Source of the DNA: a virus
Virus record (IMG/VR): IMGVR_UViG_3300035182_002579
Location: 1-25,153 of that record
Direction: 5' to 3' (one strand)
DNA length: 25,153 bases
Numbering within the stretch: the stretch's first letter is position 1; each line of letters opens with the position of its first letter. The notes under the pieces are model-generated. The model was not told where the DNA came from. It searched no databases and saw only the letters and a list, made by a program, of their open reading frames with translations. Below, in pieces: positions 19,619 through 24,628 of this stretch. Both the position numbers and the translations under genes were made by a program.

Positions 19619-21022
19619 TTAATTACCCACGGGTTCAGCCTGTGGGTTTTTAATTTTAATAATTGGCTCAAATCCAAAATAATCTGAACTAAGCTTTTCG
19701 ATTATCCTAATACTGTCAATGCAGTCTGTTAATATGCAATCATTCAAGTTGAGGGCTATGCTGCTAGGGTACTCGGTTGCAATGCGATCAATTATTATAA
19801 TATTAACTAAATTAGATTCTGACTTTAATAAAATAGACGCTAGTGTATAGTCTTTTTTATTGGAATTGAACCAGCTGAGTAATTTTTCTATTTCAGAAAA
19901 TTTTAATTTTAAAGCATCGATTGAACCGTTTATTTTTTTTGACCGATAAAACCATTTTGTTATAAAGAGCATTTTAGCCTCTTCCTTATTAGTAACTGCT
20001 AAAAGGGTAATTAACTCATTGTACATACTTGGACTGCTTACAAGGGCTTTAAAATCGATTAGCTCGGCTGCTAATGCTGTGTAATCAATACCGGCAATAG
20101 TAAACCCACGGGTTAACCTATCTTGGCATACTTGAAGTATTGCCGAAGGTGTTAATATATTGCTCATACCTAATTTAATATCCACCTCCGTTAGTTGCTT
20201 CAATGGTATGTCTTTTGCCGCAATAATAAAGTCTATCAGCTTACTGAAGTGAAGACCAGCACTGCATTGAAAGTCATATTCAATCAAACCAAGTTGAGAG
20301 CGTAATGCCCGTGGCATATTCAAGATAGGGTGAGTTACCTTTCTACATTTTTCAGTTATATTAACCCTTTTAAATTGGAGATTATAAACGCTAAATATAT
20401 TTTTGTTGGTTGTAAAAATATCGTCAGTATCGGTTTGGAATGTTGGAAGTTGAATTTTTTCTAAAGATTTTTTTTGATGAATAAAATATTTCTCTTTCAT
20501 CAATTTATCTCTCTCCAATAACCACGGGTTACGACCTGCCATATACTCACCAACGGGCTTAACTTCTATGGCTTTTGCCTTGGCAATATTTTTTAACAAA
20601 ACCTTACTGGTAATTGTTAATGGTTCTAACTCTTGATTATAAAAGACTGGATTGACGCTGTAGGATTTGCTAAACCCGTGGGTTGTACTATACTTCTCAT
20701 TAACCTCGATAACACCCAATTGCTCCAGCAATTGGATTACTACTAAATAAGATGAGTTTGGAATGAAGGAGGTAATTTCAATTTTATGAACATTAACTAA
20801 GCTGTTGAATTCTTTTGTTAAATATGATTTTGATAAAATCAGATGAACAAGAAAGTAACCATACTCAACATACTTGATTAACTTTTTTGACTGGACGTTA
20901 GTGTCGATTACCGTTATTTTTCCATCTGGAAAATGTTTAGGAACTCTTAAAAAAAATTCAGGTTGGGATAATATTAAATCGTTAAGATTTAGATTTTTTG
21001 GTTTATAAATTTGAACGGGCAC
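19619..21022 (-). CDS. putative replication protein: winged helix plus polymerase-palm-like domain
   Basis: A 467-aa protein from GTG 21022 (the only in-frame start; an upstream TAA closes the frame and the nearby ATG 21027 is out of frame). Residues 50-130 look like a winged helix (LLEQLGVIEV, then GFSKSYSVNP). The rest carries an order of motifs I associate with palm-domain polymerase-like proteins of Bacteroidota mobile elements: HPILNMPRALRSQL (231-244), an acidic motif A-like LIEYDFQCSAGL (D250), a Lys helix EEAKMLFITKWF (348-358), LASILLKSESNLV (394-406) and a motif C-like LNLNDCIL (424-431; N427-D428 where His-Asp is usual), ending YFGFEPIIKIK. It probably initiates phage DNA replication. 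The palm assignment is inference. Confidence 0.5.
   Translation of the reverse strand: MPVQIYKPKNLNLNDLILSQPEFFLRVPKHFPDGKITVIDTNVQSKKLIKYVEYGYFLVHLILSKSYLTKEFNSLVNVHKIEITSFIPNSSYLVVIQLLEQLGVIEVNEKYSTTHGFSKSYSVNPVFYNQELEPLTITSKVLLKNIAKAKAIEVKPVGEYMAGRNPWLLERDKLMKEKYFIHQKKSLEKIQLPTFQTDTDDIFTTNKNIFSVYNLQFKRVNITEKCRKVTHPILNMPRALRSQLGLIEYDFQCSAGLHFSKLIDFIIAAKDIPLKQLTEVDIKLGMSNILTPSAILQVCQDRLTRGFTIAGIDYTALAAELIDFKALVSSPSMYNELITLLAVTNKEEAKMLFITKWFYRSKKINGSIDALKLKFSEIEKLLSWFNSNKKDYTLASILLKSESNLVNIIIIDRIATEYPSSIALNLNDCILTDCIDSIRIIEKLSSDYFGFEPIIKIKNPQAEPVGN
19627..20681. repeat. CCACGGG motifs inside the replication gene
   Basis: Five copies, at 19627, 20106, 20308 (reverse), 20522 and 20675 (reverse), with near-matches AACGGGC at about 20553 and 21014. 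They encode different residues (PVG, TRG, PRA, PW, THG), using all three frames and both orientations, so a protein-level reason is excluded. Confidence 0.75.
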
Positions 21023-21391
21023 TGCATAGGCTTTTTATTTTAAATGTTATTTGCTTTACATAGGGTTTTTTGCTTTAAAATTTAAAGCAATGGGAGTAGC
21101 TATGCACTACTCCCAAACAAAAGGGTTGCAAAATCCTTTTGTATAACTATCTTTTTATATTAAATACTTGAAGTTTTAGAAAAGACTAAAAAAATATAAA
21201 AATATTTTTCTTTCGTTATTTTGGATTGCTGGAAAGTAAGCAACTAAATGTTATTTTTTGAACTAGCGATTTAAGCGTTTTTTTATAAAATTCAGCTTAA
21301 CCGGTTTACAAATATACTCATTAACTAAAGTACGCTCACCATTAGTCAGGTACTTTATTATTGCATTGCAACATATAAAGCATATGTAAAT
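21023..21391. promoter_or_regulatory. leader of replication gene with serial dyads
   Basis: No gene. In order there are: a TGCTTTAAA-A-TTTAAAGCA palindrome (21071-21089); a perfect hairpin GGGAGTAG-N7-CTACTCCC (21092-21114); a hairpin ACAAAAGG-N10-CCTTTTGT (21117-21142); a TTAAATACTT element (21160-21169); and an 8-bp inverted repeat TAAAGTAC-N16-GTACTTTA (21326-21357). All of the first four lie within 150 bp upstream of the replication GTG on the minus strand, so they could be leader RNA structures or operators. Confidence 0.6.
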
Positions 21392-21743
21392 AAGTGTACT
21401 TGAAAGTATGTACTTGATTGAAAAAGATAAAAAAAGATAGACACATCTATAACCAATACCATACCCCCATATGTGTCTACCTTTTTCTATTTATACAGTA
21501 CCCAAGGGTACAACCGCTTATGTACTTAAAGTAATGTACCAATTGAAAAGTAAAAAAAGGTAGACACATCTATAACCAATACCATACCCCCATATGTGTC
21601 TACCTTTTTCTATTTATACAGTACCCAAGGGTACCAAAAAAAAGTGTACTTGAAAGTATGTACTTGATTGAAAAAGATAAAAAAAGATAGACACATCTAT
21701 AACCAATACAATACCTCCCATATGTGTCTATCTTTTTCTATTT
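21392..21743. repeat. three ~120-bp direct repeats, each with a long hairpin
   Basis: Copies: 21392-21511, 21520-21634 and 21642-21743. Each has a TACTT/AAGTA dyad, then a 16-bp stem (arms 21431-21446/21471-21486, 21554-21569/21594-21609, 21681-21696/21722-21737) around a highly conserved 24- or 25-nt loop. Copies 1 and 2 add the palindrome GTACCCAAGGGTAC. In copy 3 the repeat instead runs into the lysozyme ATG six bases after the stem. Both strands have T-tracts after the stem (T7 on minus, T5 on plus), so each is also terminator-like. Confidence 0.9.
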
Positions 21744-22349
21744 ATGGTTATGACCACCGAAAAATTAAAAGCTTGCTTACCAGCTTGCCAACCTGACAAA
21801 TGGGTTGATCCAATTAACCAAGTTATAGCCAAATATGACATTAATACACCATTACGCTTGGCTTGCTTTTTAAGCCAGACAGGCTATGAAAGCAACAGTT
21901 ATAACGTTCTAACTGAAGACCTTAACTATAATGCTGACCAACTGGTTAAGTATTGGCCTAACCTGTTCACCGGTAAAACCGCTCAAGCTTATGCACACCA
22001 ACCGGAAAGGATAGCCAACAGGATATACGGTAATCGTTTAGGTAATGGTAATGAAAGCACTTATGATGGGTGGAATTACCGAGGACGAGGTATAATCCAG
22101 ACTACGGGCAAGATCAATTATGAAAAGGTATCAATTGGATTGAATATAAGGGCCGTGGAGCAACCTGATCTGTTATTGACCCCTTTATATGCTGCCTTGT
22201 CAGCGGGGCTGTATTGGGCTACAAATGGCTTAAATGCTTATGCTGATAAATCGGATATTATCACACTAACCAAACTAATTAACGGAGGTGTTAATGGGTT
22301 AAGTGACAGGGTCAAATTATTCAACCATATTATAACTATTTTAAAATAA
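21744..22349 (+). CDS. GH19-family lysozyme/chitinase-like endolysin
   Basis: A 201-aa protein (MVMTTEKLKACLPAC; a second ATG lies two codons later at 21750). The family-19 glycosidase pattern is clear: LRLACFLSQTGYESNSYNVLTEDLNYNA (catalytic Glu in GYES, second Glu in TEDLNY), the FTGKTAQAYAHQPERIANRIYGNRLGNG segment, YRGRGIIQTTGKINYE, and a C-terminal helix with LTKLINGGVNGLSDR. In phages these enzymes cut peptidoglycan. There is no signal peptide, so it needs a holin; the holin candidates are at the other end of the window and could be close by in the circular phage genome. It is the only plus-strand phage gene, sitting behind the hairpin repeats and convergent with the integrase. Confidence 0.9.
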   Translation: MVMTTEKLKACLPACQPDKWVDPINQVIAKYDINTPLRLACFLSQTGYESNSYNVLTEDLNYNADQLVKYWPNLFTGKTAQAYAHQPERIANRIYGNRLGNGNESTYDGWNYRGRGIIQTTGKINYEKVSIGLNIRAVEQPDLLLTPLYAALSAGLYWATNGLNAYADKSDIITLTKLINGGVNGLSDRVKLFNHIITILK

Positions 22350-22409
22350 AAAAGCACCATAGGTTAACCCTATCGCTAAGCCATAGCCTTTATAATTGGT
22401 TGAACGTCC

Positions 22410-22426
22410 TTGACCCTGTAGGTCAA
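22410..22426. terminator. dyad between convergent lysozyme and integrase genes
   Basis: TTGACC-CTGTA-GGTCAA, a perfect 6-bp stem in the 116-nt gap between the two convergent stops. T- or A-rich tracts lie at some distance on both sides (CTTTTTTG about 15 nt on). A weak bidirectional terminator is possible. The gap also holds a loose ATAGG/CCTAT dyad and ends with a CCACGGG motif (reverse) abutting the integrase stop. Confidence 0.35.
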
Positions 22427-22465
22427 CTAAGACCCCTTTACTTTTTTGCTGTTTTATACCCGTGG

Positions 22466-24475
22466 TTACTTATACGGGTTTTTTCCAACTTTCAAATTTT
22501 TCAAAATCTTTGTCTTTTCTTCAATAGTATTGCGTTGGACGTAACTACTGGACAATTCGGTAAGATCACCTTTATGACCAGTGAATAATTCAATTTGCCG
22601 ATCAGGTAAATTAAGTTCAGTAGCTAATATCGTCCCGAAAGTTTTTCGGGAAAAATACGGATTGAAAATTTTTTTAATCGGTTTAGAAATAAAATTAACG
22701 TTATTGGTAATTACTTCACGATCTAAATTTATAATTAGGCCAATTGATTGAACCAATGACCGGTAATGCTGCTCCAGTAGATCGATGTTAGCGGTGACTT
22801 TATTAACTTTTGCATTAACCCGCACCAATTGAGGTATAACGTAGTTCAACGGCTTTAATATTTTGTCTGTATAATCGTTCAAAGGATTGTGTATGGTTTG
22901 GGTTACTTTATTTTGATAAAAAGCAACTTTCCAAACCCCTTGTTTGTGTTTTAATAATTTAGCTGTATGCAACTCTTTAAACCCACGTAGGCCGCCAAAC
23001 ATTGTTTGAAGTATAAAGAGCTTTTTTGCTTTTTCAAGTTCATCAATACTAATCAATACCGACTTGGATTTATTTACACTGTCAAAAATCTGCTGGTATT
23101 GGTTCAATTTCTTTTCATCAAATTGAAACCAAAATATTTGGTCAAATTCATCTTTATTTAAATTATGCTCTATCCTAGTCCCGACCTCATCCTTTTGGTC
23201 AGTGATTGCAGATAATTTTAAGTCAGATAAGTCAAGCTTAGGTAAGTAACCCTTTTTGTAAAAGCTAAATTTATTGTTGGAGCTGTTAATGAGGGTCTTT
23301 GTTATACCAATCATTTTGTTTAATGATTTTGGCTTGTATGATGTGCGCTCTTTATCTTGATGAAATATTTGCTTATCATATTTCAAAGGGTCAAAGGTTT
23401 TTGTTTGAATAGCGTAATAACCGTTTTCTTTTAAAAAAGTAAAGAAGTCAATTAACCAATTCACATTAAAATATTTTAAGTCCTCTTTTGGTTGTCTAAG
23501 CTCACGATACTCAATCAATCTAATTAAAATTTTGCGATATGTGTCGGGTATAGTATCGTCATAATATATCGTCCCGAACATTTCAATGATATTTTGTTTA
23601 TTCCAAAGACTTTTTTTATAAACCAACTCCGTTGGCATTGTTGCCCGTTCTTTTTCTTTTTGTTCATTTACGAGCTTGGTAATTACTTTGGCAGAGGTGT
23701 TATAATCATTTTCAATTTTTACATTTTCTTTTTTCTCAACAGATTTAATAACGTCCTTATCGATTGTAATAATCTCTTTCACTTCTTTGGTGTAAAGCTT
23801 TCGAGTTCTTTTAATGTAAAACAAAATGAATTGATCTAAAAAGAATTTTTTTTTTGGCAATAAATAGCTTTCGCGTACATCCTGAGAAAGTATTGCAAGT
23901 GCCTCGGCTTTAAACCTTTCGTAAAGTTTGGGAGGAAAGTTCACTGGAAAATTCTCCAGCGATAAAGGGTCAATAATAACCTCGGTTTGTTGGATAATTT
24001 CAAAACCATCAGCATCGATGGTAACTAATTCTTTTTTTACTTTCTTTTTTGGATATTCATTTCTCAATTCCAATGCCAATGGAGTTGGTACTTCTTTTTT
24101 TATAGTTATCTCTAAAGAACGTAACCGCTTGCCTTTCTTTTTTTCTAAAAAATCTAACCCGTATAAATGTGCTTCTATTTGTTCGCGGGTAAACTCGTTG
24201 TTATATGTAACATAAGTATTGGCCTTTTGCTTTAACGTGTTTAGTTCAGTGTTTAACCTGCTTACTTCGTAAGCAGGTAAACCGCTAACAACTTGCCCGT
24301 CTTTAAATTGGTTTTTTTTTAAGGTAAGCCTTTGGGCGTCTAAATACACCGGTATGTCCAATTGCTTTTTTAAACCCTTGCGACCAATAATTCGAAGTAA
24401 TACGTACCCATATTTTTCCTTTTGCACTTGCAGCCTAAAGAAAAAACGAAACTTGGAGTTGATCTTGGAAGTCAT
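22466..24475 (-). CDS. int: tyrosine recombinase (prophage integrase), long and divergent
   Basis: About 669 aa from ATG 24475 (MTSKINSKFRFFFRLQVQK); a GTG two codons upstream is possible. Residue numbers here count from the GTG. The N-terminal arm-binding-like region is followed by a large Lys/Glu-rich section (about 100-290), which makes the protein far longer than the usual ~400 aa. The catalytic domain shows MFGGLRGFKELHTAKL (R499), the beta-strand Lys in YQNKVTQTIHNPL (K525), PYFSRKTFGTI (R612), ELFTGHKGDL (H636) and the nucleophile SSSYVQ (Y647). The first His of the H-x-x-R box is Tyr here (Y609). It integrates and excises the phage at the site on its right. Confidence 0.9.
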   Translation of the reverse strand: MTSKINSKFRFFFRLQVQKEKYGYVLLRIIGRKGLKKQLDIPVYLDAQRLTLKKNQFKDGQVVSGLPAYEVSRLNTELNTLKQKANTYVTYNNEFTREQIEAHLYGLDFLEKKKGKRLRSLEITIKKEVPTPLALELRNEYPKKKVKKELVTIDADGFEIIQQTEVIIDPLSLENFPVNFPPKLYERFKAEALAILSQDVRESYLLPKKKFFLDQFILFYIKRTRKLYTKEVKEIITIDKDVIKSVEKKENVKIENDYNTSAKVITKLVNEQKEKERATMPTELVYKKSLWNKQNIIEMFGTIYYDDTIPDTYRKILIRLIEYRELRQPKEDLKYFNVNWLIDFFTFLKENGYYAIQTKTFDPLKYDKQIFHQDKERTSYKPKSLNKMIGITKTLINSSNNKFSFYKKGYLPKLDLSDLKLSAITDQKDEVGTRIEHNLNKDEFDQIFWFQFDEKKLNQYQQIFDSVNKSKSVLISIDELEKAKKLFILQTMFGGLRGFKELHTAKLLKHKQGVWKVAFYQNKVTQTIHNPLNDYTDKILKPLNYVIPQLVRVNAKVNKVTANIDLLEQHYRSLVQSIGLIINLDREVITNNVNFISKPIKKIFNPYFSRKTFGTILATELNLPDRQIELFTGHKGDLTELSSSYVQRNTIEEKTKILKNLKVGKNPYK

Positions 24476-24532
24476 ATACACTAAATTTGGTTATATTTTA
24501 TACACCAAAAATATGCTATTTGTATACACCAA
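24475..24532 (-). promoter_or_regulatory. three GTGTATA repeats at 24-bp spacing upstream of integrase
   Basis: TATACACTAA at 24475 and TATACACCAA at 24499 and 24523 (on the minus strand TTAGTGTATA, TTGGTGTATA, TTGGTGTATA). The spacing is exactly 24 bp each time. The first copy overlaps the integrase start. This fits arm-type integrase or excisionase binding sites next to the attachment core, or an autoregulatory operator. Confidence 0.65.
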
Positions 24533-24628
24533 TCCAGTAGAAAACCGCGTTTTTACCCCTTCCACGGGTTTAACCGGTCCCTCCCTCTCCGCATTCATTG
24601 TTTTCTATAAAATCCTCTTCCCGACGGC
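24533..24628. other. prophage-host junction and upstream region of nucleotidase
   Basis: Base composition changes here from AT-rich phage to GC-richer host sequence. The stretch contains CCACGGGTTTAACCGG (24562-24577) and a pyrimidine-rich segment (GGTCCCTCCCTCTCC). The attachment core should lie here, but it cannot be fixed without the other end of the prophage. No clear Bacteroidota promoter pair is seen for the nucleotidase. Confidence 0.5.

Follow-up and report, generated by a model that had tools for sequence, protein, structure and literature searches.

A triplicated, large-loop, terminator-like hairpin array between the divergent endolysin and polymerase-like genes of a Bacteroidota prophage

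The window, that is, the whole stretch of DNA that we analysed, is a 25,153-bp IMG/VR virus record. The gene at its right end encodes a 5'-nucleotidase, for which the closest relative found was in a Bacteroidetes MAG contig (L005, 91% identity); further close relatives are held by Cyclobacteriaceae. The remainder of the window is a tailed prophage with portal, terminase, HK97-type prohead protease and capsid genes, and the prophage with its hairpin array belongs to Bacteroidota. The minus strand appears to carry every convincing phage gene in the window except for that of a GH19-type endolysin (21744-22349, plus strand). The gene of a 467-aa protein (19619-21022, minus strand) diverges from it, and the 721-bp gap between the two holds the hairpin array. 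Beyond the endolysin lies the gene of a divergent tyrosine-recombinase-like protein (22466-24481, minus strand), for which the label 'integrase' of the first-pass annotation is kept provisionally, on the basis of motif inspection and homologues. The endolysin gene, alone on its strand and with its own terminator-like hairpin (22458-22479), resembles a moron cassette (21744-22479). The sequence CCCTCTCCGCATTC (24570-24600), immediately 5' of the 5'-nucleotidase gene, matches the 3' end of a tRNA-Ser gene that occupies the same place in L005, and it is probably attR. The L005 DNA preceding tRNA-Ser is GC-rich, and a chimeric contig is possible there.

The 467-aa protein had no match in Pfam, PHROGs or NCBIfam. 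Searching with the corresponding protein of a relative (L108), we found homologues in 72 of the 204 genomes of one Bacteroidota family, and residues D250, K350 and D428 were retained in an alignment of 37 homologues. The structure model of the protein (pLDDT 82) had family-A DNA polymerases as its top 36 PDB matches (best E 1.4e-3), with low TM-scores, so that the predicted class, a family-A-like polymerase, is fairly clear, although its detail is not. The secondary structure and weak matches to ArsR-type repressors suggest an N-terminal winged helix in front of the polymerase-like palm. The earlier description of this gene as a replication gene is thus backed by the predicted fold. The family that combines the winged helix with the family-A-like palm (the present protein; L078, L103-L119 and L124-L152) is widespread in Bacteroidota and has no Pfam entry. 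Of 37 members, 15 match phrog_4756, a group of no known function.

The array consists of three hairpins with 16-bp stems of modest G+C content. Copy 1 (21427-21490; arms 21431-21446 and 21471-21486) has a 24-nt loop and one A/C mismatch in plus-strand RNA, and copies 2 (21550-21613; arms 21554-21569 and 21594-21609) and 3 (21677-21741; arms 21681-21696 and 21722-21737) have perfect stems with loops of 24 and 25 nt, respectively. The hairpins proper (21431-21486, 21554-21609 and 21681-21737) follow one another, start to start, at 123 and 127 bp, and the triple repeat reported in the first-pass annotation was recovered in its stems, loops, spacing and coordinates. Apart from copies 2 and 3, the 25-kb window has no perfect inverted repeat with arms of 11 bp or more (loop up to 60), and when the whole window was dinucleotide-shuffled eight times, the perfect arms reached 12 bp at most, against 16 bp in the array. 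The array is not due to chance. Copies 1 and 2 end in a GTACCCAAGGGTAC tail, which copy 3 does not have because the endolysin ATG (21744) starts at that point. The run of seven Ts described earlier on the minus strand is present, but five of the seven pair within the stem.

Over long stretches, copies 1 and 2 are 97% identical and copies 1 and 3 are 96% identical. Between copies 2 and 3, the 24-25 nt of the loop show one substitution and one insertion, the 32 nt of the stem show two substitutions, both at one pair (G-C versus A-T), and the upstream sequence shows differences at many positions. As far as the 5' arm, all diagnostic sites of copy 1 agree with copy 3, except for one base that adjoins the copy boundary and differs in all three copies, and from the loop onward all of them agree with copy 2. 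This single switch in the aligned sequences identifies copy 1 as a mosaic, with its 5' half from copy 3 and its 3' half from copy 2. The A/C mismatch of copy 1 at the variable stem pair (A21437/C21480 in copy 1, G21560/C21603 in copy 2 and A21687/T21731 in copy 3) is most readily explained if two diverged copies underwent crossover or conversion, and it therefore carries no information on the transcribed strand. The first-pass annotation had taken this pair as covariation indicating a selected RNA fold, and its state in copy 1 (G.U on the other strand) as a sign of minus-strand transcription. Neither argument could be maintained: 15 of the 16 stem pairs are invariant among the three copies, the observed covariation was reached in 341 of 500 shuffles, copy 1 is recombinant, and a G-C/A-T exchange suits a DNA palindrome equally well as RNA. 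The mosaic origin accounts for the A/C pair, which leaves the strand assignment without a basis. If three substitutions are placed at random, a single stem pair receives two of them about 3% of the time, which hints at selection on the palindrome but does not prove it. The further role that had been read from the conserved loop is not indicated either, since loop conservation is not above that of the stem and the whole unit is near-identical through duplication or conversion.

When the three copies were compared with shuffled sequences, the folding z-scores ranged from -5.8 to -8.0 for RNA of either strand and from -5.0 to -7.9 for DNA. All six combinations of strand and copy fold far better than shuffles in the predictions for RNA and DNA alike, and folding by itself therefore distinguishes neither RNA from DNA nor the two strands from each other. 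The minus-strand RNA has the more stable fold (-24.5 to -25.9 kcal/mol, versus -15.5 to -22.1 kcal/mol on the plus strand), and the U-tract is longer on the minus strand (U7, including the five paired residues) than on the plus strand (U5).

Short GTAC sites are interleaved with the hairpins. A GTAC-N10-GTAC pair (21396-21413) precedes hairpin 1, a GTACCCAAGGGTAC palindrome and then GTAC sites spaced 14 bp apart (21498-21539) come before hairpin 2, and a GTACCCAAGGGTAC palindrome with a GTAC-N10-GTAC pair (21621-21663) precedes hairpin 3; the spacings within the array are 10, 14 and 15 bp. GTAC sites with a constant 14-bp spacing stand ahead of every hairpin and are absent from the rest of the window. 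GTAC-N10-GTAC occurs four times in the window, always in the array, where 0.12 occurrences are expected, and part of this count is accounted for by the tandem duplication. In copy 2, both GTACs and their spacing are kept and the intervening bases are changed. Among the 8-bp inverted repeats of the window (loop 4-30), one alone has GTAC in an arm: the dyad TAAAGTAC-N16-GTACTTTA (21326-21357), which lies beside a minus-strand TATATTTG and is a candidate promoter/operator of the polymerase-like gene. By their sequence, the GTAC sites and the dyad resemble protein sites, and perhaps one regulator serves both the array and the polymerase promoter.

We built a covariance model (R1) from the three copies and searched it on 0.5 Mb of loci and on 295 genomes of a related family. 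This search, which had been proposed in the first-pass annotation, returned no homologue of the array: together with blastn on the same 295 genomes, it gave only short A-rich matches and ordinary terminators, as did a search of IMG/VR and GTDB for the exact loop pattern and a blastn search of phages and plasmids. The endolysin relatives (L002-L004) are high-GC phages with no comparable repeats, and Rfam had no match at the gathering score anywhere in the window. Several other identities were considered and rejected. A type III toxin-antitoxin system, with tandem RNA repeats before a toxin gene, does not fit, as the downstream plus-strand gene encodes the GH19 endolysin and no toxin endoribonuclease gene is present. 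A G-quadruplex in the minus-strand loop was discounted on inspection by eye, the fourth GG run being absent from copy 3, and integrase arm sites appear improbable, as the attachment end is about 3 kb away.

Leaving aside the three copies, the best matches of R1 were mostly short-loop hairpins with an A-tract, a stem and a T-tract, the form of ordinary terminators. The best non-self match in the window was a short-loop hairpin of the phage itself (10863-10903, ATAAAAAAAGGTCTCC...GGAGACCCTTTT). Most of the other matches, in Bacteroidota genomes, lie after or between gene ends, several of them between convergent genes, and two weak ones (L170 and L171) fall inside ORFs. In a survey of 1.37 Mb of Bacteroidota loci for the A-tract/stem/T-tract form, we found 30 hairpins, none of them inside ORFs (14 between convergent, 9 between tandem and 6 between divergent genes, and 1 at a locus edge); 29 of the 30 have a loop of at most 15 nt, versus 24-25 nt in the array. 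Published intrinsic terminators have a median loop of 4 nt, and the usual TransTermHP criterion is 3-13 nt (PMC12207403). The array hairpins are predicted to form the stable stem with a U-rich tract that characterises intrinsic terminators, but their loops of 24, 24 and 25 nt exceed the terminator limit, and we therefore call them terminator-like and not canonical members of the class. Like bidirectional intrinsic (Rho-independent) terminators, they have an A-tract, a perfect stem and a T-tract that can be read on both strands; unlike them, with their loops of about 3-13 nt, the array consists of three tandem large-loop copies in a divergent gap, one of which touches a start codon. The base of the hairpin is that of a two-way terminator, and its loop size and location are atypical.

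Our preferred reading, which we put forward tentatively and give somewhat less than an even chance, is that the hairpins are a triplicated two-way element of the intrinsic-terminator type, an insulator with unusually large loops in a divergent control region. The sequence anatomy, the folding predicted on both strands, the resemblance of the stem base to terminators of Bacteroidota and the duplication and mosaic history of the copies are shown here; termination itself, its strand and the reason for keeping three copies are what we infer. The array would probably keep the transcription of the endolysin and polymerase-like genes apart. Minus-strand RNA from the integrase gene would cross the endolysin gene, fold into a strong stem that has a U-rich tail, and end ahead of the polymerase-like gene, and plus-strand RNA would stop at the array; in any plus-strand read-through RNA, the endolysin start would be buried in hairpin 3. 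The interleaved GTAC sites would probably bind a putative regulator of the divergent gap. A terminator scan of the stretch from the integrase stop to the array gave no strong candidate on the minus strand, which makes minus-strand read-through towards the polymerase-like gene plausible. The terminator reading of the first-pass annotation is thus supported by the covariance-model matches, the minus-strand fold, the longer U-tract and the terminator scan. The folding z-scores and the absence of surveyed hairpins of this type from ORFs also speak for it, and the A-tract/stem/T-tract form is kept across copies whose flanking sequence has diverged. Against the terminator-type reading, the array lies in a divergent gap and not at a gene end, its loops are unusually long, the G+C content of its stems is modest, and the searches of relatives gave no homologous array. 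If the reading is correct, a temperate phage insulates its divergent lysis/replication gap by duplicated large-loop two-way terminators, and the case warns that gene conversion among paralogous repeats can mimic RNA covariation.

The chief rivals are control of endolysin translation and a replication origin. Under the former, which we consider unlikely, hairpin 3 would bury the endolysin start region in long plus-strand transcripts, translation would proceed only from RNAs starting inside or beyond its 5' arm, and copies 1 and 2 would be upstream attenuators or duplicates. Just 6 nt separate the 3' arm of copy 3 from the endolysin ATG, and the predicted mean unpaired probability of positions -20 to -1 is 0.08 if the transcript contains all of the hairpin and 0.43-0.57 if it begins at or beyond 21690, so that the start is predicted to be paired in long transcripts and free in short ones. 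A documented precedent is the lysozyme gene e of T4, the leader hairpin of which can bury the start of this lysis gene in long transcripts (PMC3014915). Unlike that leader, the array is triplicated and has T-tracts on both strands, neither of which is explained by translation control, and no late promoter was identified in its 5' arm. No Bacteroidota-type promoter was found between the arms, and no TAnnTTTG-type site in or just past the 5' arm of copy 3 in a scan that would miss phage-specific promoters; nor is there an upstream plus-strand gene able to supply read-through. The terminator/insulator and start-masking roles are compatible.

A replication origin and operator appears similarly improbable. 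The GTAC sites would be putative iterons for the winged helix of the polymerase-like protein, the hairpins would be unwinding or priming structures, and the gene would be autoregulated through the TAAAGTAC-N16-GTACTTTA dyad. The predicted family-A fold and winged helix of the adjacent gene product, the four GTAC-N10-GTAC pairs and the closeness of the unique GTAC dyad to the minus-strand TATATTTG favour this arrangement, as does a weak excess of repeats or long palindromes 5' of homologous polymerase genes (8/38 versus 14/157, p = 0.04). However, most polymerase homologues have no such array upstream, large-loop hairpins near these genes are no commoner than in chromosomal DNA, GC skew is uninformative on an origin, and the array, which adjoins the endolysin gene, ends some 370 bp short of the polymerase start. 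We rejected the idea that tandem hairpins are conserved in the polymerase family, since the upstream regions of the homologues are mostly without arrays. Iteron-type origins have uniform iterons of about 20 bp. The present locus is like those with an autoregulatory dyad in having short repeated sites beside the gene of a winged-helix, replication-type protein, and differs from them in that the GTAC spacing is 10 and 14 bp, the array is not conserved with the gene and GTAC binding is putative. It is rather improbable that the array serves, as both replication origin and autoregulatory operator, a class of Bacteroidota mobile-element polymerases that has yet to be named, with GTAC iterons binding the winged helix and hairpins as start structures; were it so, a polymerase family that is widespread and lacks a Pfam entry would gain its first cis element. 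Still less probable, in our estimate, is that a single hairpin was duplicated in tandem neutrally or by recombination and that its copy number has no role. The high identity of the copies, the mosaic copy 1 and the absence of the array from relatives are in keeping with such a duplication, but the spacers have diverged, whereas the GTAC sites and the stem that they separate are retained, and random placement would seldom put two of the three substitutions on a single stem pair.

Palindromes also occur elsewhere around these polymerase genes. The leader of the present gene (21070-21115) has two more, TTGCTTTAAAATTTAAAGCAA on the plus strand and a hairpin of TGGGAGTAG and CTACTCCCA. A TATAACCAATA shared by the array and L108 was not significant (z = 1.8). 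In genome G603, 5' of two related polymerase genes, L107:7935-8005 has a perfect 20-bp stem with a 31-nt loop and L108:7926-8030 has a repeat pair 58 bp apart, and TGTACCATCATAT is common to both regions.
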